From a virus: DNA of 22,566 nucleotides. Positions 3,258-16,512 of this stretch are shown here, one piece after another. The notes beneath the pieces are model-generated. The model was not told where the DNA came from. It saw only the letters and a program-made list of their open reading frames with translations, and made no database searches. Position 1 is the first letter of the stretch. Each line of letters opens with the position of its first letter. The position numbers and the translations under genes were made by a program. The DNA is taken from positions 1-22,566 of the IMG/VR virus record IMGVR_UViG_3300036832_000202. One strand, written 5' to 3'.

Positions 3258-5807
3258 ATGCCTATCAGCGGAACCTTCGGCGCTGACTTCTCCGCCTTTC
3301 AGACGGCGGTGGATGGCGCGGTCACGAAGCTGATCACGTTCGAAGACAACGCGACGAAGGTGAAGAACGCGCTCGGCAAGATGGAAGAAAGCTTCTCCGG
3401 AAAAACGGTCATTCAGAACGCCACGCTGATGGCCGAAGCCATCGAACGCGCAGGCGGCATCGCCGCCCTGACCGGCGACGAACTGGCCACCGCAGGCGCC
3501 AAGGCGCAGGAAGCCGCCGAGAAAATGCGGGCGCTGGGCATCACGGTGCCGGAGAACATCCAAGCGGTCGCTGACGCCGCTGCGAAAGCCGACACGAGTA
3601 CGAAGAGTCTGAGCGTGTCCGTCCTGGACATGGTCAAGGCCTACGTCTCCGCCGAAGCGATACTCGGCGCCGCGAAGGCCGCATGGGCCGCCGTGACCGA
3701 TCAAGTGACCGAGTCGATCGGCGCCGCCAACGAAGCCGAGAAGGCGCACGTCCAGCTGCTCGCCGCGCTGCACACGCAGGGGACCGACATGCCCAGCGTG
3801 ATCAGTGCGTACGAGGGCTACGCGAGCGCGCTGCAAAAAACCACCATCTATCAGGACGACGCGATCGAAGGCGCCGAAGCCCTGCTCGTGCAGATCGGCG
3901 GCGTGATGCCCAAGGACATGCAGGCCGCGCTCACCGCGACGACGAATTTGGCGTCGGGGCTGGGCATCGACCTGCACACGGCGACCCTGATGGTCGCCAA
4001 GGCGGCCGAAGGCAACACGACGGCGCTCGGGAAAACCGGCGTCGTCCTCGACGAAACGCGCGTGAAGGCCGAAGGGTTCGGCTATGTCCTCGACACCATC
4101 AACGACAAATTCAGCGGGCAGGCGGCCGCCGTCGCCGATACCTACGCCGGTCGGCTGACGCAGCTGGCAAATACCTGGAACAACGTGCAGGAGTCGATCG
4201 GCCGCGTCATCACGCAAAACGCCACGGTGTTGAAAGCGATCGATCTGGTCAATCAAGCCATCGACAGCAACACGGGCGAACTGAAAGACAACCAGACCGC
4301 CACCGATCTGGTGTCGCTGGCGGTCATCAGTGCCGCGAAGGCCATGGGGTTCCTGATCGAAGCGGGCAATTTCCTGCAAACCGAATTCGAGGATCTGCGC
4401 GTCTTCGCCGACAAAACTGCACAGGGCTTCCTCGACCTCGGCATCGCGGCACTCAAGACCGGAATCGCCGTCGCTGACTTCCGGTCGCATATCGATCCGT
4501 CGACGTGGAACCCGCAATTTCAAGCGAGTCTGGCCGACGCGAAGACGGCACTCGCCGGAATGCAAGGGGCGTACAAAAATCTCGCGACCGACATCGCGTC
4601 GGCCGGCACCTCACAGAAAGACTGGTCCGACAAACTCGGGGGACTCAATACCCAGATCGACGGCTTCGTGGCGGAACTCGAAAAGACACGGGGCAAAACG
4701 AAAGAAGTGACGGCGGCCGCGAACGAAAACAGCGACGCATGGAACCGCAACACGGTCAACCAGAAGGCCAACGCCGAAGCCGCGAAAAAGGCGCACGACG
4801 AGGAAGAAGCGTTTTGGAAGGAGTACATCAAGTTCTACGAGGAAGAAATCGGCAAAACCGCCAAGACGTGGCAGAAGGCGCAGGAGGACAACGTCAAGGC
4901 GATGAAGCTCGTGAACGATGCCATCCTGGCCGAACTGGACGCGCAGGTGAAACTCAACGCCGCGCAGGGCCTCGATGCGATGGGCGCCATCAAACTGCAG
5001 TCGACCGCGCTCGACGATCTGAATACGAAGCTGGCCGCGCTGCACGCGAACAAGGTGCAGAACATCTCGCAGGAAAAAGAAGAGCAGGTGCTGATGCAGC
5101 AATACAGCACCGCGCTCTACAACGAAGCCGTCGCCGAAGATAAGAAACAACAGGCGCGGATCGATGCCTCGAACCGAGCCACCGAAGCGCTCAAGAGCAA
5201 CGTGCAACAAGTCGCCGATGCAACCGCGCTCACCTATCAGCGGGCGCTGAACGACTACACGAAGTACTCGCAGGACCAACTCGAAGCGCTGCGCGATGCC
5301 GCGAATGCGGCGGCGCAGGCGGTCAGCGATGCGGCGACGCGCGCCGCGCAGCACGCGGACGATGCGTTCAAAAGTTTTCACAACACGATCGTCCTCGACA
5401 CGACGGACCTGCAGACGCTCAATCAGGAGTTGACGAAGTTTTACGACAAGCTCGCGGCGCAGGGGAATGTCGGGATGATGGGGCCGAATGCCGGTGTTGG
5501 GATGCCGGGCGCGGGAACGGGTGCGGGGATGGGCCGCATTCCGTCCTTCGGTGAAGGCGGCTCGGGCGACTTCGGCAGCGGCACGGTAGCGATGCTGCAC
5601 GGCAAGGAAGCGGTGGTGCCCCTCGACGACAACGGCAGCAACATCCTCTACGGCGGCGCGGCCGGACTGTCCCACGGCGCCACGGTCAACCTGACCGTGA
5701 ATGTGACGCAGCCGCTGGGCACGCCGGACCAGATCGCGCGCGCCGTCGGCGAGGCGCAAATCTCGGTCTTGAAAGGACAGGGCATCCGCCTGCCGTATGG
5801 CGCCTAA
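3258..5807 (+). CDS. Tape measure protein
   Basis: An 849-residue protein, the usual tape measure position after the tail chaperone. Residues 130-340 hold the alanine/threonine-rich helical domain seen in phage tape measure families ('LHTATLMVAKAAEGNTTALGKTG', then 'YAGRLTQLANTWNNVQESIG'). Two moderately hydrophobic segments lie near residues 130-150 and 350-370. A long coiled-coil-like region with many K/E/A residues runs from about 490 to 710. The C-terminal part is glycine-rich and ends with 'GDFGSGTVAMLHGKEAVVPL', a conserved tape-measure tail signature. By the rule of about 1.5 angstrom per residue the tail would be roughly 120-130 nm. ATG 3258 lacks a strong ribosome site and may depend on coupling to the frameshifted chaperone. 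The end overlaps the next gene by 11 bases. Confidence 0.9.
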   Translation: MPISGTFGADFSAFQTAVDGAVTKLITFEDNATKVKNALGKMEESFSGKTVIQNATLMAEAIERAGGIAALTGDELATAGAKAQEAAEKMRALGITVPENIQAVADAAAKADTSTKSLSVSVLDMVKAYVSAEAILGAAKAAWAAVTDQVTESIGAANEAEKAHVQLLAALHTQGTDMPSVISAYEGYASALQKTTIYQDDAIEGAEALLVQIGGVMPKDMQAALTATTNLASGLGIDLHTATLMVAKAAEGNTTALGKTGVVLDETRVKAEGFGYVLDTINDKFSGQAAAVADTYAGRLTQLANTWNNVQESIGRVITQNATVLKAIDLVNQAIDSNTGELKDNQTATDLVSLAVISAAKAMGFLIEAGNFLQTEFEDLRVFADKTAQGFLDLGIAALKTGIAVADFRSHIDPSTWNPQFQASLADAKTALAGMQGAYKNLATDIASAGTSQKDWSDKLGGLNTQIDGFVAELEKTRGKTKEVTAAANENSDAWNRNTVNQKANAEAAKKAHDEEEAFWKEYIKFYEEEIGKTAKTWQKAQEDNVKAMKLVNDAILAELDAQVKLNAAQGLDAMGAIKLQSTALDDLNTKLAALHANKVQNISQEKEEQVLMQQYSTALYNEAVAEDKKQQARIDASNRATEALKSNVQQVADATALTYQRALNDYTKYSQDQLEALRDAANAAAQAVSDAATRAAQHADDAFKSFHNTIVLDTTDLQTLNQELTKFYDKLAAQGNVGMMGPNAGVGMPGAGTGAGMGRIPSFGEGGSGDFGSGTVAMLHGKEAVVPLDDNGSNILYGGAAGLSHGATVNLTVNVTQPLGTPDQIARAVGEAQISVLKGQGIRLPYGA

Positions 5808-8800
5808 AACGATCGCGCGATCGAATCTGGCGCGCTCGAATGCGGCGCGATCCGGCTGGCCGACGCTGGTCGGGACGAAGGTCAAACTCTTCGCCTTGTC
5901 GAAGGTCGCCCGCAGCGGCGCGACACGCTCGAATTATCACAACTGCCAGACCTTCATCACGATGAACGGACAGCGGCTGGGCGCAGGCGCCGTCGTCGGG
6001 GGACCGGGCATCCTGGCCAAGTCGGTCACCGTCAATGATTCGATGAACAACGTCCCGACTACCGCGCAGCTGACCTTCTACAAGATCGTGCCGGTCGAAG
6101 GGAACGACCTGATCATCACGCTCGGATCGGTCAACAACCGCCAGCGCGAATTGGCCGGCACCATCCTCAGCGTGGTGCACCGCTATGTCGGGGACCTGCC
6201 CGTCGACCGCAACATGGTCTATGACGCGCAGCTGATTGACTACACATGGGGACTCGGACGGAAGAAAGTGAGTGGCAAGTACACCAACAATTCCGTCGCC
6301 ACCATCGCCGCCGCCATTCTGGCGGGCGCTACGCAGTACACGCTCCAAGTCGATAGCGACATCGGCGCGATCCTCGTGAACGAAATCACCTTCACCGAAC
6401 AGACGGTGGACGATGCCCTGCACCAGCTGGTGACGCGCGTCGGCGGCGACTACGAGTGCGACTACCTGCGTGTCGTGCATCTGTTCCTCACCTACAAGCA
6501 GGACACGCCGCCCGCCCTCATCAATCGCGCGCATCGGTCCATGCGGGATCTGGTCTGGACGCGCGACCTATCGCAAGTCGTCACGCGCGTCTACCACGAC
6601 TGCGGCGGCTCGAATGCGCTGGAACAAATCGGCCCCGGCGAAACCCTGATCCCCGTCGAAACCGCTGCGTGGTACGAGACGGCAGGCGGCGTCGTCCTGG
6701 TCAACCAGCAGCGTGTGAACTATGCAGGCGTCGTGTTGGGCGGCGGCGGCGCGTTGGTCGGTCCCGGTGCCGCGCCGACGGCCGCGATCAATGCCGCTGT
6801 CGTGCCGGGGTCCGGCGTGACGGCCGGTGCGCACGACTATGCCGTGTCCTACGTGACGGCGTCGGGCGAGTCGCTGCCGGGGCCACGGGTGTCAGTCGTC
6901 AGCGGCGTCATCGCGCCGCCGACTGCTGGACCCGCCCTCGACACGTCGAAGCCGCTGCTCGCGGGCAACGGTCCCGCCCCCGGCGCGCACGACTACGCCA
7001 TGACCTTTGTCGCGAGTACCGGCGAGACGACGCCGGGGCCGCGCGTGACCATCAATACCGGCTTAGTCACGCCGCCGACAACCGGACCGACGCCCGCCGC
7101 TGGTGCCGTCGGTCCGGGTCCAGACGATGGCGCGCACGACTACGCGGTGTCCTTCGTCACGGCCCAAGGTCAGTCGACACCGTCGCCGATCGGTGGACAG
7201 ATCCAGCTGGCGGGCACGCCGGTCCCGGCGCCGGGCGCGCCGACGGCAAACACGGCGACGACGGGCGGGGCTGTCGATATCGGCCAGCACTGGTACGGCG
7301 TGACGTTCGTCACCGCGCGCGGCGAGACGACCGTCGGCAATGGCGTGATGGGTGAAGCGTTCGGACAGGGCAAGATCGCGGACCCAGCGGGCGCGCCGGG
7401 CGTGACCGACGGCAGCGGCAACAATACGGTCTCCGGGGGCAACGCCGCGTACATGTATGCCTATCGCGGCGGCGGTGGGCAAACACTCACCTCGCCCTCG
7501 ACGGACTATGTCTTAACCCTCGTCAGCAGCTTCCCCATCACGTATCGCAACGTGTCGATCACGGTGCCCGCGTCACCCGATCCGAACTGCACGGGGATCG
7601 TGCTCTATCGCGCGAACGGCTACAACCCGCCCCGCAGTTACTTCACCGAGATCGCGACGTTCTCGAATGTGCAATCTACGTTCACCGATAATTTCAGTAG
7701 TTCGAGCGGCGCGACCCCTCCGGCAAACAACAACACGACCGTCACCGGTTCGCCGCGCCAGACGATTCCGATCCGCACCATTCCGATCGGTCCCGCTGGC
7801 GTCATCGCGCGGAAGCTCTATCGGACCGACAACAAGGGCAGCGCGCCGAAGTTCCTCGTTACGATCAACAACAACAGCACGACTTCGTACGACGACGCGG
7901 CGGCAGACTCGACGCTCGGGGCCGTAGGACCCGGCAGCAACACCGCGTACGTCTCGACGGCGGTGCATCTCACGAACATCGCGCGCGCGATCGGCAGCGA
8001 TGCCGGGGCGGTCACGTCACGCAATCTGTGGCGCCGGTCGGCCGGTGCGGGGCTGCGTTTCCTGGCCACCATCGCAGATAACTCGGCGTCGACCTACGAC
8101 GACACGATTGCCAACAGTGCGCTCGGAGCGGCGCCACCGTCTGCGAATACGGCCTACCTGCAACAGATCCCGCTGACGCTGCCGCTGGGCGGACCCTTCA
8201 TCGTCAATCGCAATCTGTACCGCACGAAGATCGGATCGTCGACGCTGTTGATCATGGCCTCGCTGGATAACGTCGTGACGACGTTCCTCGATACCGTTCT
8301 CGACGGCAACCTTGGCGCAGCAGCGCCGACGACCAACGGAGCCGCCGCCGCACAGGTCAACCTGTCCGCGATTCCGATCGGGGCCGCATCCGTCACCCAG
8401 CGACGTCTCTATCGCACGGCAGCGGACGCCTCGCAGCTGAAGCTCCTGACGGGATTGGGCGATAACACGACGACGGCCATCAGCGACACCCAGCCCGATG
8501 CCGCGCTAGGTGCCAATGCGCCCACGTCCGATACGTCGCTGCTCCAGCAGCCCACGGGTAATGTCCTCGCGGGTGCGACGGCACTACCGTTGGCCAGCGT
8601 GGCCAGCTTCCGCGCAGCGGGCGGCTGGGCGATCGTCGCCTCGCAGATCGTCCGCTACACCGGCATCAGCGGGAACAACCTGTCCGGCGTGCCGGCCACC
8701 GGCATCGGATCGATCGGCGCGACGATTACCTTTAACGTGTCGGCCATTGCCGCGCCGATGCTGATCGGCGTGCCGACGACGGGGACGGGGACGATCCGCT

Positions 8801-9240
8801 ACACGATTTTCAAGGGCGATCCGGTCGACGTCTTCGTGCAGGTCGACGACCTGGCCGCGCAAGCCGCCGTCCGCGCGCAGCTGCCGGGGAGTGACGGCAT
8901 CATCGAAGACGAACTCCAAGATCGGCGCTTGTCGGCGACGGAAGGCCGCGCCCGTGCACAGGCCCGGCTGGCCCTGCTCGCCGCCCGCGACAGCACCGGC
9001 AAGGTCGGACTCATTTCGGTCACCTATACCTGTCGCGACATCAACACGCGCGCCGGGCGGACGGTCACGATCAACCTTGGTCCGCCGATCAACCTGTCGG
9101 GCGATTTCCAGATCCAGCGCGTCACGGAAAGCAAGTTCTACGTGCCGAGTCAGCCGCCCACCTATGTCGTCGAGGCGTCGAGTGTGCGCTTCTCGTACGA
9201 GCAACTTCTCCGCATCATCGGCGATGCAGCAGGGGCCTAA
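5797..9240 (+). CDS. Large tail hub/tip protein with tandem inserted repeats
   Basis: A 1147-residue protein directly after the tape measure gene, where the distal tail/hub protein is expected. The N-terminal part (about 45-320: 'FITMNGQRLGAG', 'AQLTFYKIVPVEGNDLIITLG', 'FTEQTVDDALHQLVTRVGGDYECDYLRVVHLF') and the last 140 residues ('VFVQVDDLAAQAAV', 'ARARAQARLALLA', 'FQIQRVT') have the pattern of phage baseplate-hub proteins. Between them, residues 344-940 are two families of tandem beta repeats. The first has GAHDYAVSYVT-like cores at residues 344, 396, 445 and 496. The second has LYRT-like cores at 603, 674, 744, 807 and 871. A segment with 'GG…V.(Q).(I/V).Y.G' occurs on both sides of the repeats. 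The first 45 residues contain repeated ARSN/ARSG units. The start overlaps the tape measure end by 11 bases. The hub assignment is inference; the repeats are seen directly. Confidence 0.75.
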   Translation: MAPKTIARSNLARSNAARSGWPTLVGTKVKLFALSKVARSGATRSNYHNCQTFITMNGQRLGAGAVVGGPGILAKSVTVNDSMNNVPTTAQLTFYKIVPVEGNDLIITLGSVNNRQRELAGTILSVVHRYVGDLPVDRNMVYDAQLIDYTWGLGRKKVSGKYTNNSVATIAAAILAGATQYTLQVDSDIGAILVNEITFTEQTVDDALHQLVTRVGGDYECDYLRVVHLFLTYKQDTPPALINRAHRSMRDLVWTRDLSQVVTRVYHDCGGSNALEQIGPGETLIPVETAAWYETAGGVVLVNQQRVNYAGVVLGGGGALVGPGAAPTAAINAAVVPGSGVTAGAHDYAVSYVTASGESLPGPRVSVVSGVIAPPTAGPALDTSKPLLAGNGPAPGAHDYAMTFVASTGETTPGPRVTINTGLVTPPTTGPTPAAGAVGPGPDDGAHDYAVSFVTAQGQSTPSPIGGQIQLAGTPVPAPGAPTANTATTGGAVDIGQHWYGVTFVTARGETTVGNGVMGEAFGQGKIADPAGAPGVTDGSGNNTVSGGNAAYMYAYRGGGGQTLTSPSTDYVLTLVSSFPITYRNVSITVPASPDPNCTGIVLYRANGYNPPRSYFTEIATFSNVQSTFTDNFSSSSGATPPANNNTTVTGSPRQTIPIRTIPIGPAGVIARKLYRTDNKGSAPKFLVTINNNSTTSYDDAAADSTLGAVGPGSNTAYVSTAVHLTNIARAIGSDAGAVTSRNLWRRSAGAGLRFLATIADNSASTYDDTIANSALGAAPPSANTAYLQQIPLTLPLGGPFIVNRNLYRTKIGSSTLLIMASLDNVVTTFLDTVLDGNLGAAAPTTNGAAAAQVNLSAIPIGAASVTQRRLYRTAADASQLKLLTGLGDNTTTAISDTQPDAALGANAPTSDTSLLQQPTGNVLAGATALPLASVASFRAAGGWAIVASQIVRYTGISGNNLSGVPATGIGSIGATITFNVSAIAAPMLIGVPTTGTGTIRYTIFKGDPVDVFVQVDDLAAQAAVRAQLPGSDGIIEDELQDRRLSATEGRARAQARLALLAARDSTGKVGLISVTYTCRDINTRAGRTVTINLGPPINLSGDFQIQRVTESKFYVPSQPPTYVVEASSVRFSYEQLLRIIGDAAGA
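6826..7440 (+). repeat. Four tandem Fn3/Ig-like units in the hub protein
   Basis: Four units begin G-A-H-D-Y or G-Q-H-W-Y followed by (A/G)-(V/M)-(S/T)-(Y/F)-V-T at 6826, 6982, 7129 and 7282, spaced 52, 49 and 51 residues. Each continues with a G-E-(S/T) or G-Q-S turn and a P-rich strand. The pattern resembles small fibronectin-III-like beta sandwiches found in phage tail proteins. The DNA copies have diverged, so these are protein-level repeats. Confidence 0.7.
7558..8535 (+). repeat. Five tandem 'LYRT' beta units in the hub protein
   Basis: Five units share a core (V/I)-x-x-R-x-L-Y-R-T, then a short strand and '(T/S)-(T/S)-(Y/F)-x-D-x-x-x-(D/N)-x-x-L-G-A'. The LYR/LWR cores start at 7603, 7816, 8026, 8215 and 8407, spaced 71, 70, 63 and 64 residues. 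The first copy (7603) is the most diverged. The D-N and D-D acidic turns could bind calcium, which is a guess. Confidence 0.7.
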
Positions 9241-10567: not shown

Positions 10568-10791
10568 AGACCGTCCTGGACCCGGTCGACTACTGGCGCC
10601 TGCGGGCCAAGTGTAGTGACGCGCAGCGCGCCACGGCCGTCGCGATGCAAGCCCGCGAAGCCATGGTCACGGCGACCAAAGTACAGGCCGCCGCACTGAC
10701 GGCGCTCGGCTTCGATCCGAACCTGCCGACTTTCAGCCTCGACGACGACACCTGCACGATTGATCTGCCGGACGGCAAAGGAGACGTATGA
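10564..10791 (+). CDS. Small unknown protein of the late operon
   Basis: A 75-residue protein starting at ATG 10564, overlapping the previous stop by four bases. Residues 1-45 look like a long alpha helix rich in A/R/K/M ('YWRLRAKCSDAQRATAVAMQAREAMVTATKVQAAAL'); the rest is an acidic strand region ending DGKGDV. I do not recognise a family. It overlaps the next gene by ATGA, and the final codons carry that gene's ribosome site (AAAGGAGA at 10777-10784). A small helical protein here could be a chaperone or a coat for a fibre, but there is no direct evidence. Confidence 0.62.
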   Translation: MKTVLDPVDYWRLRAKCSDAQRATAVAMQAREAMVTATKVQAAALTALGFDPNLPTFSLDDDTCTIDLPDGKGDV

Positions 10792-11063
10792 CGATCAAGA
10801 CGACGGTCACGACTCAGGAACACAAACCGATTCCATCGGCCTATGTCTCCGCGAACATCCAGAACACCGGCACCACCTTTACCCGCTTTACCGACGGCAA
10901 CGGCTACGCCGATGTGGCGCTCTTCGATGACGACGTGCCCGACGGCGCACAGGTCACCTTCCTGGTTACCGCCGACGGCTTCAAGACGCACTGCGAATAC
11001 CTGACGATCAACGACGACGACGACGACCGGGAGGTGTCCGTCACCCTCGTCCCTTTCGTGTAA
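10788..11063 (+). CDS. Ig-like (carboxypeptidase-regulatory-like) domain protein, zero-frame form
   Basis: A 91-residue protein with the shape of a carboxypeptidase-regulatory/Ig-like beta sandwich: 'PIPSAYVSANIQNTGTTFTRFTDGNGYADVALF', then 'PDGAQVTFLVTADGFKTH'. The T-D-G-x-G-x-A turn followed by 'V.A.GF' is the family signature. Such domains sit on phage particle surfaces and are thought to bind glycans weakly. ATG 10788 overlaps the previous stop (ATGA) and has AAAGGAGA four bases upstream. A short acidic run NDDDDDRE precedes the last strand. The frame ends at TAA 11061-11063, but a C CCT TTC site two codons earlier would carry ribosomes into the next frame, fusing this domain to the following protein. 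Confidence 0.75.
   Translation: MTIKTTVTTQEHKPIPSAYVSANIQNTGTTFTRFTDGNGYADVALFDDDVPDGAQVTFLVTADGFKTHCEYLTINDDDDDREVSVTLVPFV
11051..11057 (+). promoter_or_regulatory. Candidate -1 frameshift slippery site C CCT TTC
   Basis: The heptamer CCCTTTC is phased C CCT TTC relative to the 10788 frame, an X XXY YYZ site, and lies one codon before the stop region (GTG TAA). The -1 frame is open from 11057 to 12073. Weak pairing of GGTCC (11071-11075) with GGACC (11091-11095) is possible downstream. Fusion of Ig-like domains to phage proteins by programmed frameshift has been described for other phages. A real one-base mutation or a sequencing error would look the same. Confidence 0.55.
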
Positions 11064-11131
11064 AGCGGCCGGTCCCGCCGCCGATCGTCCGGACCTTCCC
11101 GCCGCTGCCGCCCGGCACCTACGATGCCGTC

Positions 11132-12073
11132 TTGCCGTGGACGCCGCCGGTCTCGCGCGACTATCTGCGCGGCGACTTCTGGGCCGTGCCGCAACCCGGC
11201 TTGCCTGCCGTCCCCGGTGGACCGTCGGGCGGATCGTCGGAGTTTCCGGAGCGCATCATCACCGGCCTCGATTACAAGTACGACCGCAAGCAATGGTGGC
11301 CGAAGATGGTGGACCGCCATCGCGAGCGCGGCTACACGCACTGGCTGCGCTGGTCGAGTAACGCGCTCTATGACGGCGCCGAGTACGGCGGTAATCCGTC
11401 GATCAATAAATTCGTCGACGACTGCCTCTTACTCAAGCTGTTGGGCATGAAGTACGTGACGGTGTCGCTGACGTCGAAGGTTTTCGACCCGCGCGACCCG
11501 TCACTGCAGCAATACCAGGATCGGGTCGGGCCGCTGCTGTCGGCGCTGCTGTCCGCGAAGGCCGTCGACGAGCTGATCCCCGGTTTCGAGTTCGATGCGT
11601 TCAACGTCCCCGGCGAGACGACGGTGTCGATCTTCAAATGGGTCGGGCAACAAGGCCACGCGCACGGCGTGTCGACGTGGGCGCACTTCTATCCGCACGT
11701 CACGGCATGGTTTGCCGACGGGGATCCGCGCGGCCGCTTCGGCTTTTGGGAAGACTTGGGCGTCGACGTCGACGGCATCGACTATCAGGCCGATTCGGCG
11801 TGGGACGTGGCGGAACTGCAGGCGCGCATCGTTGATTCGCTGTGGACGTTCGGCGAGCAGGGCAACCTACACAAGTTCCGGCTCTGTGAAGATCAAGCGA
11901 TCAGACAATTCTCCGGACATCCGTGGGGATCGGCTTCGCTCCACCCTGACGAGAACGACGGCGCGCAGCGGGGGTACTACAGCTGCTGCACCGTCGACAA
12001 CGTCAAGCACACCGATGCGAAAGTGTGGGGCTACGGCAACGGCGGGATGCGGCCCGATGGAGGGTGGCTATGA
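11132..12073 (+). CDS. TIM-barrel-like tail-associated protein, possible glycan-active enzyme
   Basis: The open part from TTG 11132 encodes 313 residues, but the frame is open back to 11057. The earlier part reads as a proline-rich linker (RPVPPPIVRTFPPLPPG), so the true product is probably the -1 fusion with the Ig-like domain, about 428 residues in total. TTG 11132 has no ribosome site and no ATG or GTG lies between. The body has alternating strand/helix segments: 'ITGLDYKYDRKQWW', 'GYTHWLRWSS', 'LLGMKYVTVSL', 'GFEFDAFNVPGE', 'HGVSTWAHFYPH', 'DVDGIDYQAD', and a C-terminal CED..NGG part. Acidic residues at strand ends (E-F-D, D-G-I-D) resemble a glycosidase barrel. Enzyme activity is inference. 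The end overlaps the next ATG (ATGA). Confidence 0.65.
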   Translation: MPWTPPVSRDYLRGDFWAVPQPGLPAVPGGPSGGSSEFPERIITGLDYKYDRKQWWPKMVDRHRERGYTHWLRWSSNALYDGAEYGGNPSINKFVDDCLLLKLLGMKYVTVSLTSKVFDPRDPSLQQYQDRVGPLLSALLSAKAVDELIPGFEFDAFNVPGETTVSIFKWVGQQGHAHGVSTWAHFYPHVTAWFADGDPRGRFGFWEDLGVDVDGIDYQADSAWDVAELQARIVDSLWTFGEQGNLHKFRLCEDQAIRQFSGHPWGSASLHPDENDGAQRGYYSCCTVDNVKHTDAKVWGYGNGGMRPDGGWL

Positions 12074-13455
12074 GACATCGCACGACCGACGACGTCGGCG
12101 CCGCGCTCGACCGGGTCGAGTCGACGCTGGCCGTGCATACACAAGCGGTCCGACGTCTCCGTGACGTATACGACGACGCGAACCAGCCGACGCCGCCCGA
12201 CGATCAGACCATCTACGTCCACGCGGGCGAAGACTTGCGCAGCATCCTGGAGGCCGCGCCGCCGAGTGCGGTCGTCCGCTGCGAAGCGGCGACGTATCAA
12301 GGCCCGTTCATCTTGACGAAGCCGGTCACCTTGCGTGCCGACCACGAGCACGACGGCCGCGCCGGTCTCGAGATGCCGGTGTGGTTGACGTCCGGAGCCG
12401 AAGATACGGTCAGTATGCGCGGACCCGATCAGCGACTGCTCGGCGTCGGCATTCGGAACACGAACCCGGATTACCAACTCTTGGCGGTCACACGGGACGC
12501 GACGCGCACGCTGATCGATCAAGTGTCCTGTCTCGGGGATCCGGTCTACGGCGGACGCCGCGGCATCCGGCCAGAAGGGACCGGCGTCGTCATCCGCCGC
12601 TCCTATGTCGACTACATCGGACGGCCCGGTCTCGAAACGCAAGCCGTCTGCGGCATCGTCGGCGGCCGCGACATTCTCATCGACGATTCCCATCTCGCGG
12701 GCGCCGCCGAGGCGGTCATGTTCGGCGGTGGCGATACACCCAGCTCCGATTTAATTCCGACCGGCATCCGGATCACGCGGTCGACGCTCACCAAGCGGCC
12801 CGAATGGTTTCAGATGGGATGGCAGTTAAAAAATGCATTCGAGTTGAAGAATGCGAAGCACGTCTACGTCGCCGACACGATCATGGAGTACGCGGGCATG
12901 GCCGAAGGACAGGGCGCCTATTCCGGCGTGATGACGCCACGGAATCAGGACGGCGGCTCGAAGTGGAGCTGCGTCGAGGACGTCCTGATCGAACGGTGCC
13001 GCTGTTCGATTGCGGGCGGCTGTCTCTCGCTGATGGGCAGCGACTATGTCCATCCCTCCGAAAAGCTGCGGAACTTCACCATCCGAGACGTCCTGTATGA
13101 ACTCATCGATCCGTGGGGCGTGACTGGCGGCACCGGGAACTGTGTCTTTATCCAGCGCGCGCCGGAGCATGTGACCATCGAGCGCGTCACGATTCGCGGC
13201 GAACATCTGAACGCCGCGCTCTACTTCGGGCCGGATATGCCCCCGCCGTGGCTGACGATTCGCGACGTCGTCGTGCCGGCCGCCTTTACCGACCCGCACG
13301 AGAACAATCCGTACCTCTGGAAAATCGACGGGGGCGGGCAGGGGCAAAGTGCGGTGCAGGCCTTCTGTACCTTCCCCGATGACCATAGCAAGGACGCCGT
13401 GTTCGAGCGCATCGGCACGCCGGACGCGATCGGCGCGAGCGGCTATCCGGCATGA
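12070..13455 (+). CDS. Right-handed parallel beta-helix protein (tailspike-like)
   Basis: A 461-residue protein starting at ATG 12070, overlapping the previous stop by four bases; the open frame extends upstream but only into the previous gene. A short coiled-coil-like stretch (residues 8-35) is followed by 'IYVHAGEDLRSILEAAPPSAVVRCEAATYQG', the entry of a pectin-lyase-like beta-helix. Repeated short strands with asparagine and valine ladders follow ('GVGIRNTN', 'ILIDDSHLAG', 'IRITRSTLTK', 'VYVADTIMEYAG', 'VLIERCRCSIAGG', 'VTIERVTIRGEH', 'LTIRDVVVPAAF'). This fold is typical of phage spikes that bind or cleave surface polysaccharide. No catalytic residues can be named safely. With the S74 fibre and barrel protein it forms a host-recognition group. 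Confidence 0.75.
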   Translation: MRHRTTDDVGAALDRVESTLAVHTQAVRRLRDVYDDANQPTPPDDQTIYVHAGEDLRSILEAAPPSAVVRCEAATYQGPFILTKPVTLRADHEHDGRAGLEMPVWLTSGAEDTVSMRGPDQRLLGVGIRNTNPDYQLLAVTRDATRTLIDQVSCLGDPVYGGRRGIRPEGTGVVIRRSYVDYIGRPGLETQAVCGIVGGRDILIDDSHLAGAAEAVMFGGGDTPSSDLIPTGIRITRSTLTKRPEWFQMGWQLKNAFELKNAKHVYVADTIMEYAGMAEGQGAYSGVMTPRNQDGGSKWSCVEDVLIERCRCSIAGGCLSLMGSDYVHPSEKLRNFTIRDVLYELIDPWGVTGGTGNCVFIQRAPEHVTIERVTIRGEHLNAALYFGPDMPPPWLTIRDVVVPAAFTDPHENNPYLWKIDGGGQGQSAVQAFCTFPDDHSKDAVFERIGTPDAIGASGYPA

Positions 13456-14599: not shown

Positions 14600-16327
14600 T
14601 CAGGCCACCCGGATGCGCTTGGTCGGGTAGTCTTTCCGCTTCGGGGGCCGGAATTCTCCAGCGAAAACCGGGTGGTAAGCGTCGTTCGAATTACTGCTAG
14701 ATTGTCCGACGCTTACCACCGTCCCGCCCAGTAAGCCCAACGCTTCGATCCGACCTTCAAACCGGATGACCCGGTCGCCAACGGCCCCGCTGTGGACCGG
14801 ATGGCAGACGACCGGCTGCGACAGGAACCGCCGCAACCAGTCCCGCGCGATCGGCGTCCGGCTGGCCAGCTGCGTCCGCCAGCTGTCGACCGTCTTCCGC
14901 ATCTGCGCTTCGACTTCCGGCCATGGCCGATGCGGACCAGCCGTCCCCCGCGCCTGCTGGAGGTCGGCTTCGATGGCGGCCTTGCGTTCTTCGGCCGCGT
15001 CCAGCAGGTCGGCCAGCCGTTCGGCCGCCTTCGGGTTCTTCGCCCGCCGGACGGCCGCCGTGCAGTTGTCGGCTTCGCGCGTGGCCTTCGTCAAGTCGGC
15101 CTGTAGCCGGTCGATGCGCTGGCCGGTCGACTTGGCGGTGTAGGCCGCCTTCGTCTTCGCCAGCAGCTGCTCGAATTTGTCCGGTGTCAGCTGCTTGAGG
15201 ATGGATCCGACCACCGCTGCGTCGAAGTCGGCCATGTGCCAGCGTGCCGAATTCCGGCAGCCGTTCGCCTTGCCTTTTGTGTAGTGTCGCGTGCAGGCGT
15301 AGCCGGCCACGATCCGACCTTCCTGCATGGTCCGCTTGCGGACGTGCATGCCGCCGCCGCATTCGCACTGGAGGAAGCCGGTCAGCAGATACTGCGAATC
15401 CAGATTCGCCCGGCGCGGCGTGCCATAGCTGCAGCTGGCCGACCGGCGTTCCATCTGCCGGTGGGCCGCTTGCCACAGCACGTCGTCGATGATGCGCAGC
15501 GTCGGATCCTGCCGCCGGATCCATTCCGACTTCGGCCGGACGACGATCTTCACCTTGCCGCTGGTCTTCACCTTCGTCGTCCGATTCCAGATGATGACGC
15601 CGCGATAGATGTCGTTATTGAGAATGTGCCGGACGCTGGCCCCGCTCCAGCCGTCCGACTTCGACGCCTTCGGTCTGATGGTCGGCACCTTGTCGTCGGT
15701 CAGGATGCGTGCCACTTTGTTGTAGCCGTCGCCCTTGGCTGTCAGCTTGAAGATCCGGACGACGACGGCCGCCTGCGCCGGATTGACCACGTGCCGCTTG
15801 TGGCCGTCGATCTTCTGAATGTCGATCGCGTACGACTTGCCGCTGGCGACGTCGCCCTTTTCGGCCAGCTGCGTCAGGGCTTCGTGGACGGTCACCTTCG
15901 ATTGTTTGATCGCGGCATGGTTCGCGTGCGCTTCGACGACGTTTTGCACGTCCGACCCGATGTCGCCGTGCTTGAACTGGTCGCCGGTTGCATAGAACCA
16001 GATGGCGACCCCGGCATCGGCGACGAAGGACAACTCGGAGACGCCCTTCATGCCTTCGCGTCGAGTGAACCGCGACTTGTCGCGGACGATCAGGACGTCG
16101 AAGCGGCCCGCATCAATTTCCTGGAGCAGTCGGCCGCGATTTTTCAGCTGCTGAAACAGTTCGCCGCTGATGGCGTCATCTTCGAAGATGGCGGCCGGAT
16201 CGACGGTCCAGCCCTTCGACGCGGCGAACTTCAGGGCGTTGGCGATCTGGCGCTTCGTCGATTTCAGATCGGAATCGTCCTTGTGTTTGAGCGACGACTT
16301 GCGGGCGTAGATGGCACACCGGATCAT
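14600..16327 (-). CDS. int: Large serine recombinase (phage integrase)
   Basis: A 575-residue large serine recombinase. The N-terminal catalytic domain has 'IYARKSS' with Ser11 as nucleophile, 'ED.AISGE' near residue 49, and 'LIVRDKSRFTRR' near 79-90, the conserved arginine region. A recombinase domain follows (about 180-290: 'VVNPAQAAVVVRIFKL', 'GWSGASVRHILNNDIYRGVIIWNRT'). A zinc ribbon has Cys321, Cys323, Cys345 and Cys357. A coiled coil of about 400-460 precedes a C-terminal tail. All key parts are present, so it should be active. The true start is ATG 16327, which overlaps the stop of an RHH-like gene (ATGA); the longer ORF start is out of context. It catalyses attP x attB recombination for lysogeny. 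Confidence 0.93.
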   Translation of the reverse strand: MIRCAIYARKSSLKHKDDSDLKSTKRQIANALKFAASKGWTVDPAAIFEDDAISGELFQQLKNRGRLLQEIDAGRFDVLIVRDKSRFTRREGMKGVSELSFVADAGVAIWFYATGDQFKHGDIGSDVQNVVEAHANHAAIKQSKVTVHEALTQLAEKGDVASGKSYAIDIQKIDGHKRHVVNPAQAAVVVRIFKLTAKGDGYNKVARILTDDKVPTIRPKASKSDGWSGASVRHILNNDIYRGVIIWNRTTKVKTSGKVKIVVRPKSEWIRRQDPTLRIIDDVLWQAAHRQMERRSASCSYGTPRRANLDSQYLLTGFLQCECGGGMHVRKRTMQEGRIVAGYACTRHYTKGKANGCRNSARWHMADFDAAVVGSILKQLTPDKFEQLLAKTKAAYTAKSTGQRIDRLQADLTKATREADNCTAAVRRAKNPKAAERLADLLDAAEERKAAIEADLQQARGTAGPHRPWPEVEAQMRKTVDSWRTQLASRTPIARDWLRRFLSQPVVCHPVHSGAVGDRVIRFEGRIEALGLLGGTVVSVGQSSSNSNDAYHPVFAGEFRPPKRKDYPTKRIRVA

Positions 16328-16512
16328 GATGCGCTCCAGTCCTGTAGCAGCCGCAGAATGGCGGCGCGATAGGACAGCCCTTCGCGCCTGCACTTGTCGG
16401 TGAACCGGCGCCACAGTGGCGCCGGGATGTAGCGCAGTGAATACGCCTTTTCCGTTTCTTTGTTCGGCGTGAATTCGTAGGAGTAGCCGCGCTTCTTCGG
16501 TTGGGTCGCCAT
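16324..16512 (-). CDS. Small ribbon-helix-helix-like protein coupled to the integrase
   Basis: A 62-residue basic protein, MATQPKKRGYSYEFTPNKETEKA then 'YSLRYIPAPLWRRFTDKCRREGLSYRAAILRLLQDW'. A short strand, a helix starting P-x-x-L-W-x-x-F and a second helix after G-L-S-Y-R match ribbon-helix-helix DNA-binding proteins (Arc/MetJ type). ATG 16512 has a strong GGAGGAA ribosome site and overlaps the DUF3768 stop by one base; its own stop overlaps the integrase start (ATGA). It could regulate the operon, or act as a recombination directionality factor for the integrase. Both are inference. Confidence 0.75.
   Translation of the reverse strand: MATQPKKRGYSYEFTPNKETEKAYSLRYIPAPLWRRFTDKCRREGLSYRAAILRLLQDWSAS

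Follow-up and report, generated by a model that had tools for sequence, protein, structure and literature searches.

The window analysed here is a stretch of 22,566 bases of a virus record. It carries a tail operon of a phage, in which the junction between a small Ig-like gene and the following large reading frame is, with high probability, a site of programmed −1 frameshifting. The expected products are a free Ig/transthyretin-like protein and a minority fusion of about 428 residues, where the same domain would be connected through a linker to a glycoside hydrolase-like barrel. The features of the window that are necessary for the discussion are as follows.

1073–1537: neck/tail-completion protein (phrog_5)
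3258–9240, plus strand: two long tail-region ORFs of 849 and 1147 aa
9244–10224: tail fibre with an S74-like end
10777–10783, plus strand: Shine-Dalgarno sequence AAAGGAG of the Ig-like gene, anti-SD duplex −8.7 kcal/mol
10788–11063, plus strand: zero-frame ORF, 91-aa Ig/transthyretin-like (CarboxypepD_reg-like) domain, ATG at 10788, TAA at 11061–11063
11029–11035, plus strand: Shine-Dalgarno-like GGGAGGT inside the gene, its end 15 nt from the heptamer, −11.6 kcal/mol
11051–11057, plus strand: candidate slippery heptamer C CCT TTC (X XXY YYZ), identical and in phase in 7/7 loci
11051–12073, plus strand: −1 frame barrel ORF, predicted GH-A-like (β/α)8 barrel from about residue 30 (11138) to 12070
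11057–11137, plus strand: proline-rich linker of the −1 frame, RVKRPVPPPIVRTFPPLPPGTYDAVLP, preceding the fold and GTG 11186, its first part with low pLDDT
11061–11063, plus strand: zero-frame stop TAA, one codon past the heptamer, position kept in 7/7 loci
11064–11106, plus strand: candidate 3′ hairpin, outer arms 11064–11069/11101–11106, inner arms 11071–11075/11091–11095
11132–11134, plus strand: TTG, the sole ATG/GTG/TTG candidate before the fold, SD duplex −1.7 kcal/mol, judged unused
12070–13455, plus strand: next gene, 461 aa, ATGA overlap with the barrel stop, SD −9.8 kcal/mol
14600–16414, minus strand: large serine recombinase (Resolvase, Recombinase and Zn ribbon; phrog_95 integrase, E 7e-63)

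Downstream of the tail fibre the gene order is two small genes, the Ig-like ORF, the barrel ORF and the gene of the 461-aa protein, and the start of the Ig-like gene overlaps the upstream gene as ATGA. The two long tail-region ORFs have no match in Pfam, PHROG or NCBIfam, and a search of annotated phages with the Ig-like protein and the barrel gave no match to either. Since a large serine recombinase is present, the phage is probably temperate. The only database match of the 461-aa protein is weak (NosD, E 0.015); the protein looks repeat-like, of the beta-helix type, and is perhaps a second tail protein directed at polysaccharide.

At the junction the zero frame reads GTC CCT TTC GTG TAA and the −1 frame CCC TTT CGT GTA AAG CGG CCG. 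The original prediction of a correctly phased CCCTTTC just before the Ig-like stop can thus be read directly from the bases, with one sense codon left before TAA. The −1 frame is open from 10931 to 12073, including 340 codons from the heptamer onward, and runs straight into the barrel through the proline-rich linker, as had been supposed; the length of the predicted fusion (88 + 2 + 338 = 428 aa) also agrees with the earlier figure. The two strands of the window together contain 129 mechanical ORFs of 60 aa or more; in a survey of these, this was the only one with an in-phase X XXY YYZ heptamer in its last 33 nt, and its CCT codon accounts for 4% of the proline codons in the genes of the window. 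No known RNA element was found at gathering score. Transcriptional slippage was rejected on the basis of the sequence, because the longest homopolymer at the site is three bases.

The barrel and the junction pattern were used to search viral contigs (IMG/VR) of uncultured phages, which led to about 50 barrel relatives. The two-frame layout is present in seven loci: the window, L017 (=L001), L018 (=L002), L021, L024 (=L006), L025 and L064. In all of them an identical CCCTTTC in the zero-frame phase is followed by one codon, the stop and the −1 continuation, so that the proposed comparison of homologues shows this arrangement kept in six other contigs; the stop is TAA in six loci and TGA in L025. 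Junction-pattern matches in L074, L075, L077 and L078, where the frames are short or unrelated, were set aside as due to chance.

The barrels of L064 and the window are 29% identical, and their N-terminal domains have no detectable similarity (E 0.48), while 23 of 24 junction bases coincide. For the N-terminal domain of L017, the similarity to that of the window is confined to 15 residues at the junction (E 0.012). In ten further contigs an L017-type domain is fused in frame to a different protein after a ...TLIPF motif, and the heptamer occurs in none of these: nine use CCG TTC for P-F and one has A-F. Hence CCT TTC is found in 7/7 loci with the stop and in 0/9 in-frame P-F relatives (Fisher p 9e-5, with kin treated as independent). 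Among five close Ig genes, 11/11 amino-acid-invariant codons within the last 17 are also codon-invariant, compared with 13/48 elsewhere in the gene (p 9e-6, related sequences being treated as independent). These comparisons point to conservation of the slippery sequence at the nucleotide level beyond protein constraint. The ten contigs (L080–L089) share another feature, namely a relative of the L017 domain, a Pro-rich linker and a conserved C-terminal protein of about 200 residues (DAIDLSxAIVASGDCPxVAHLPI...) in one frame, suggesting that phage surface proteins may generally use the L017-type Ig-like domain as an N-terminal adapter.

Behind the stop codon, the stretch leading to the fold (11063–11182) evolves as coding sequence of the −1 frame: in six close loci, from just past the stop to the conserved DFW/DWW motif, pN/pS is 0.42 in this frame and 1.29 and 1.69 in the others. 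The −1 frame past the site is therefore both coding and unbroken into the extension. No start codon in this frame is common to all seven loci. The TTG at 11132 is CTG in four of the six other loci and is absent from L064, where no ATG, GTG or TTG occurs until residue 56, inside the fold. The next candidate, GTG 11186, is residue 46 and lies within the conserved domain. For both codons the best Shine-Dalgarno match reaches no more than about −2 kcal/mol, compared with −8.7 and −9.8 kcal/mol for the Ig gene and the next gene, in accordance with the earlier statement that the barrel has no ribosome site. The accompanying statement that there is no ATG or GTG start holds up to the fold and should be amended for the GTG inside it and for the TTG. 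Use of that TTG, which had been named as the observation that would speak against a frameshift, would in addition remove conserved −1 frame coding sequence. An own TTG or GTG start as the general mode was rejected, there being no shared start and, in L064, none at all before the fold.

The zero-frame product was called Ig-like in the original prediction. The Ig/transthyretin-type sandwich stands, and the more suitable family is CarboxypepD_reg (PF13620; E 1.6e-7, 32.0 bits at a gathering cutoff of 32.3) rather than Big_1, whose match is weaker (E 6e-4). By Pfam, the N-terminal domain is thus probably a carboxypeptidase-regulatory-like (transthyretin/Ig-type) sandwich with a score slightly below the cutoff. 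CarboxypepD_reg is also matched by three in-frame fusions (best E 0.0017), and a sequence search of the PDB with the domain gave no useful match. The last 60 codons of the gene have a zero-frame pN/pS of 0.25.

For the −1 frame protein, an AlphaFold2 model was obtained with good confidence (pLDDT 89.1, pTM 0.88), and its resemblance to hydrolases of clan GH-A agrees with the TIM-barrel-like fold suggested before. The nearest structures belong to GH53 and GH5, with Z of about 16 at about 10% identity; the best match has Z 16.5 and an rmsd of 3.6 Å over 256 aligned residues. Members of clan GH-A have two catalytic glutamates at strands 4 and 7 and an asparagine directly before the strand-4 glutamate. 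In 43 barrel sequences two glutamates are invariant, E180 (11588–11590) and E280 (11888–11890). In the predicted model the former is situated just past strand 174–176 and the latter ends strand 275–280, taken as strands 4 and 7, so that the two are candidates for the catalytic pair. The residue preceding the strand-4 glutamate in the alignments is Phe, Trp or Gly; the canonical Asn is missing, and therefore the barrel is named GH-A-like and not a member of the clan. The model supports a GH-A-like (β/α)8 fold of about 310 residues, and polysaccharide hydrolysis would be a plausible function of it. Neither Pfam, PHROG and NCBIfam nor a sequence search of the PDB gave a match to the barrel, and no relative of it was found in GTDB genomes. 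The barrel is under purifying selection (pN/pS of 0.57 in frame, 1.23 and 1.45 in the other frames). A model of the in-frame fusion L046 was poor (pLDDT 55) and was left out.

Two candidate stimulators surround the heptamer. The upstream GGGAGGT (−11.6 kcal/mol, where −7.7 kcal/mol corresponds to 5% of the coding background) is present in 5/7 loci, L017 and L064 being without it, and may act as a 5′ frameshift stimulator. It sits over conserved residues in the codon-frozen 3′ end of the Ig gene, and protein constraint is a possible alternative cause of its conservation. The downstream hairpin of the window starts 6 nt after the heptamer (−18.2 kcal/mol, z −1.5), and the 103-nt fold of the window shows no excess stability. 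In L017 and L064 hairpins are found at the same distance with −28 kcal/mol and z of −3.3 and −4.2, respectively, and the outer hairpin columns are common to these two loci and the window. The hairpin is strong in 2/7 loci and weak in L018, L021, L024 and L025. Across the seven loci RNAalifold gives an unfavourable covariation term, and equal pair counts are obtained with shuffles; a structure conserved in all seven loci is not established, and the hairpin is unproven. It may nevertheless be a 3′ stimulator in some members, and its distribution suggests a trade-off with the SD-like stretch. This non-uniformity of stimulators counts against the frameshift reading.

The barrel is also expressed in other layouts. 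In twelve relatives (eleven in alignment A4 and L137) a continuous Ig-linker-barrel ORF exists, and the linkers are alike between the layouts (SFKRAPDVPVIVRGPLLPF against PFRVKRPVPPPIVRTFPPLP). Since such natural fusions of the two parts exist, the fused product is viable. Most other relatives have a barrel with its own start. In 18 of 22 loci tested a long ORF lies upstream, and its stop and the barrel start overlap or are very close to each other; this arrangement is absent in six of the seven frameshift loci. In the own-start relatives L019–L031 a different upstream protein of about 95 aa (MYYRFLITDPLPVLV...) replaces the Ig-like gene, and a short hydrophobic segment, AGSVxLLGS, opens the barrels. 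On the tree, the in-frame fusions that were placed form one separate clade, the frameshift and own-start forms interleave, and the supported branches force at least four changes of expression mode. Such a history agrees with a shuffling of domains in which the junction was adapted anew on each occasion.

The main competitor of frameshifting is a barrel made as a separate protein, by termination-reinitiation or by internal initiation. Its weak start would be TTG 11132, GTG 11186 or some non-canonical codon located at the stop, and GGGAGGT would help. Relatives from the same clade do use coupled own starts, and SD-like stretches near the ends of phage genes are common and can favour restart (PMC5009743). 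At position +36 GTG is present in four loci, with GTC in the window and GTT in L018. The only TGA junction, that of L025 (L025:2998-3012), gives rise to a −1 frame GTGA overlap, where a coupled restart could take place. Restart nevertheless finds no start common to the seven loci and none of the usual codons before the fold in L064; the SD-like stretch is too distant from all the candidate start codons, and the sequence 5′ of any start is conserved as −1 frame protein. Retention of the rare CCT codon together with the heptamer is left unexplained as well. In our opinion, a separately started barrel is an improbable explanation of the junction. As a side observation, the L025 junction might represent a transition between frameshift and coupled-restart expression.

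An origin of the junction by chance or by sequencing error is very unlikely, judging from the relatives. Twelve of them have the two domains in this order without any break of frame, which might be taken for a trace of a sequencing or assembly error, or of a recent indel, that split one gene; one-frame relatives had in fact been named beforehand as a sign of this, and they do exist. Yet the same two-frame junction is found in seven independent contigs and recurs across the family, the in-frame fusions form their separate clade, and synonymous sites are constrained around the junction. For the recurrence and the separate clade, error or indel was rejected, and we ascribe it almost no probability. 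It may also be supposed that two independent genes overlap by chance, with a decaying or unexpressed barrel and an incidental upstream −1 frame, and the barrel indeed has no match in the three family databases. A barrel of this kind would hardly be expected to show purifying selection, a confident model and two glutamates invariant in 43 sequences, so chance overlap is to be regarded as highly improbable.

On the frameshift reading, the following course of events may be proposed. Ribosomes translating the Ig-like gene would reach C CCT TTC, and the majority would add one further codon and terminate at TAA, giving the free 91-aa domain as the probable main product. A fraction would slip one base backward, with the same tRNA re-pairing at each codon (CCT to CCC and TTC to TTT), and would continue in the −1 frame through the proline-rich linker into the 310-residue GH-A-like barrel, to yield the 428-aa protein. 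In most members slipping would probably be aided by the SD-like stretch situated some 15 nt upstream and, in others, also or instead by the hairpin about 6 nt downstream. Judging from the position in the operon and from known cases, the N-terminal domain could be a docking adapter of the tail tip, incorporated into the virion in many free copies, and the minority copies with the barrel would bind or cleave polysaccharide of the host surface. A more daring suggestion, which we consider possible and rather doubtful, is that the junction of about 25 nt (GTCCCTTTCGTGTAARGCGGCC...) is a portable frameshift cassette. Its seam would be kept at the nucleotide level and passed between phages, so that unrelated N-terminal adapters are swapped onto GH-A-like barrels with the adapter:fusion ratio preserved, and the family would repeatedly move between frameshift, in-frame and separate-start expression.

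If the frameshift reading is right, phage frameshifting is extended to an Ig-like base product with an enzyme-like barrel as the rarer extension. One barrel family with three expression modes (frameshift, in-frame fusion and own start) makes a natural comparison set, which allows asking what benefit a frameshift-set ratio gives to the phage and how frameshift signals are gained and lost during domain shuffling. In tail proteins of this kind, the true start would often escape automatic gene callers, and with it the N-terminal part.

In the literature covered, which was a part of it, CCCTTTC was not found as a phage slippery site, nor was any barrel to which an N-terminal Ig-like domain is joined by frameshift. 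With GH53 and GH5 of clan GH-A the protein shares the predicted (β/α)8 barrel (Z about 16), its two invariant glutamates being placed by the model at strands 4 and 7 as candidates for the catalytic pair, and it differs from them by the low identity (about 10%), the missing Pfam and NCBIfam matches and the lack of Asn before the strand-4 glutamate. The −1 signals of E. coli dnaX and IS elements consist of an SD sequence, a heptamer and a stem-loop (PMC5009743). The candidate layout is similar, with an upstream SD-like stretch, a heptamer and a downstream hairpin, but CCCTTTC is not A-rich, and the stretch and the hairpin each occur in a part of the family.

In lambda gpG/gpGT, ribosomes slipping by −1 shortly before a small ORF ends make a minority longer protein at a set ratio (PMC5009743), and the same course is predicted here. 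Unlike lambda, no chaperone pair before the tape measure is concerned; the place is the tail-tip/fibre end of the operon, and the parts are an adapter and a GH-A-like barrel. It is well established that phages use frameshifting with Ig-like domains. C-terminal domains of this type are added by frameshift to capsid and major tail proteins, as in T3 gene 10, A2 and Listeria A118/PSA, and the fact that one architecture may occur both in frame and with a frameshift was ascribed to domain shuffling (PMC5009743); the SPP1 major tail protein with its frameshift-added Ig-like domain was described in PMC6669499. These systems have in common with the present one a phage virion-protein gene, an Ig-like domain, a shift (predicted here) near the zero-frame stop, by which most of the product is short and a minor part long, and the coexistence of in-frame and frameshift versions. 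The polarity, however, is reversed here: the Ig/transthyretin-like domain is N-terminal and in the zero frame, and the predicted extension is a large enzyme-like barrel.

The nearest precedent for an Ig domain ahead of the shift is TpeX of 936-group lactococcal phages, where a frameshift after an Ig-fold adhesin domain adds an extension linked to carbohydrate binding (PMC6669499). There, the zero frame yields the complete major tail protein, which ends in the Ig domain, in contrast to the free single domain here, and the part added here would be a GH-A-like barrel. In the known cases found, it is thus the C-terminus of a capsid or tail-tube protein that bears the Ig domain or the further extension, whereas what appears new here is a small Ig-like domain as the base product, with an enzyme-like barrel as the extension.
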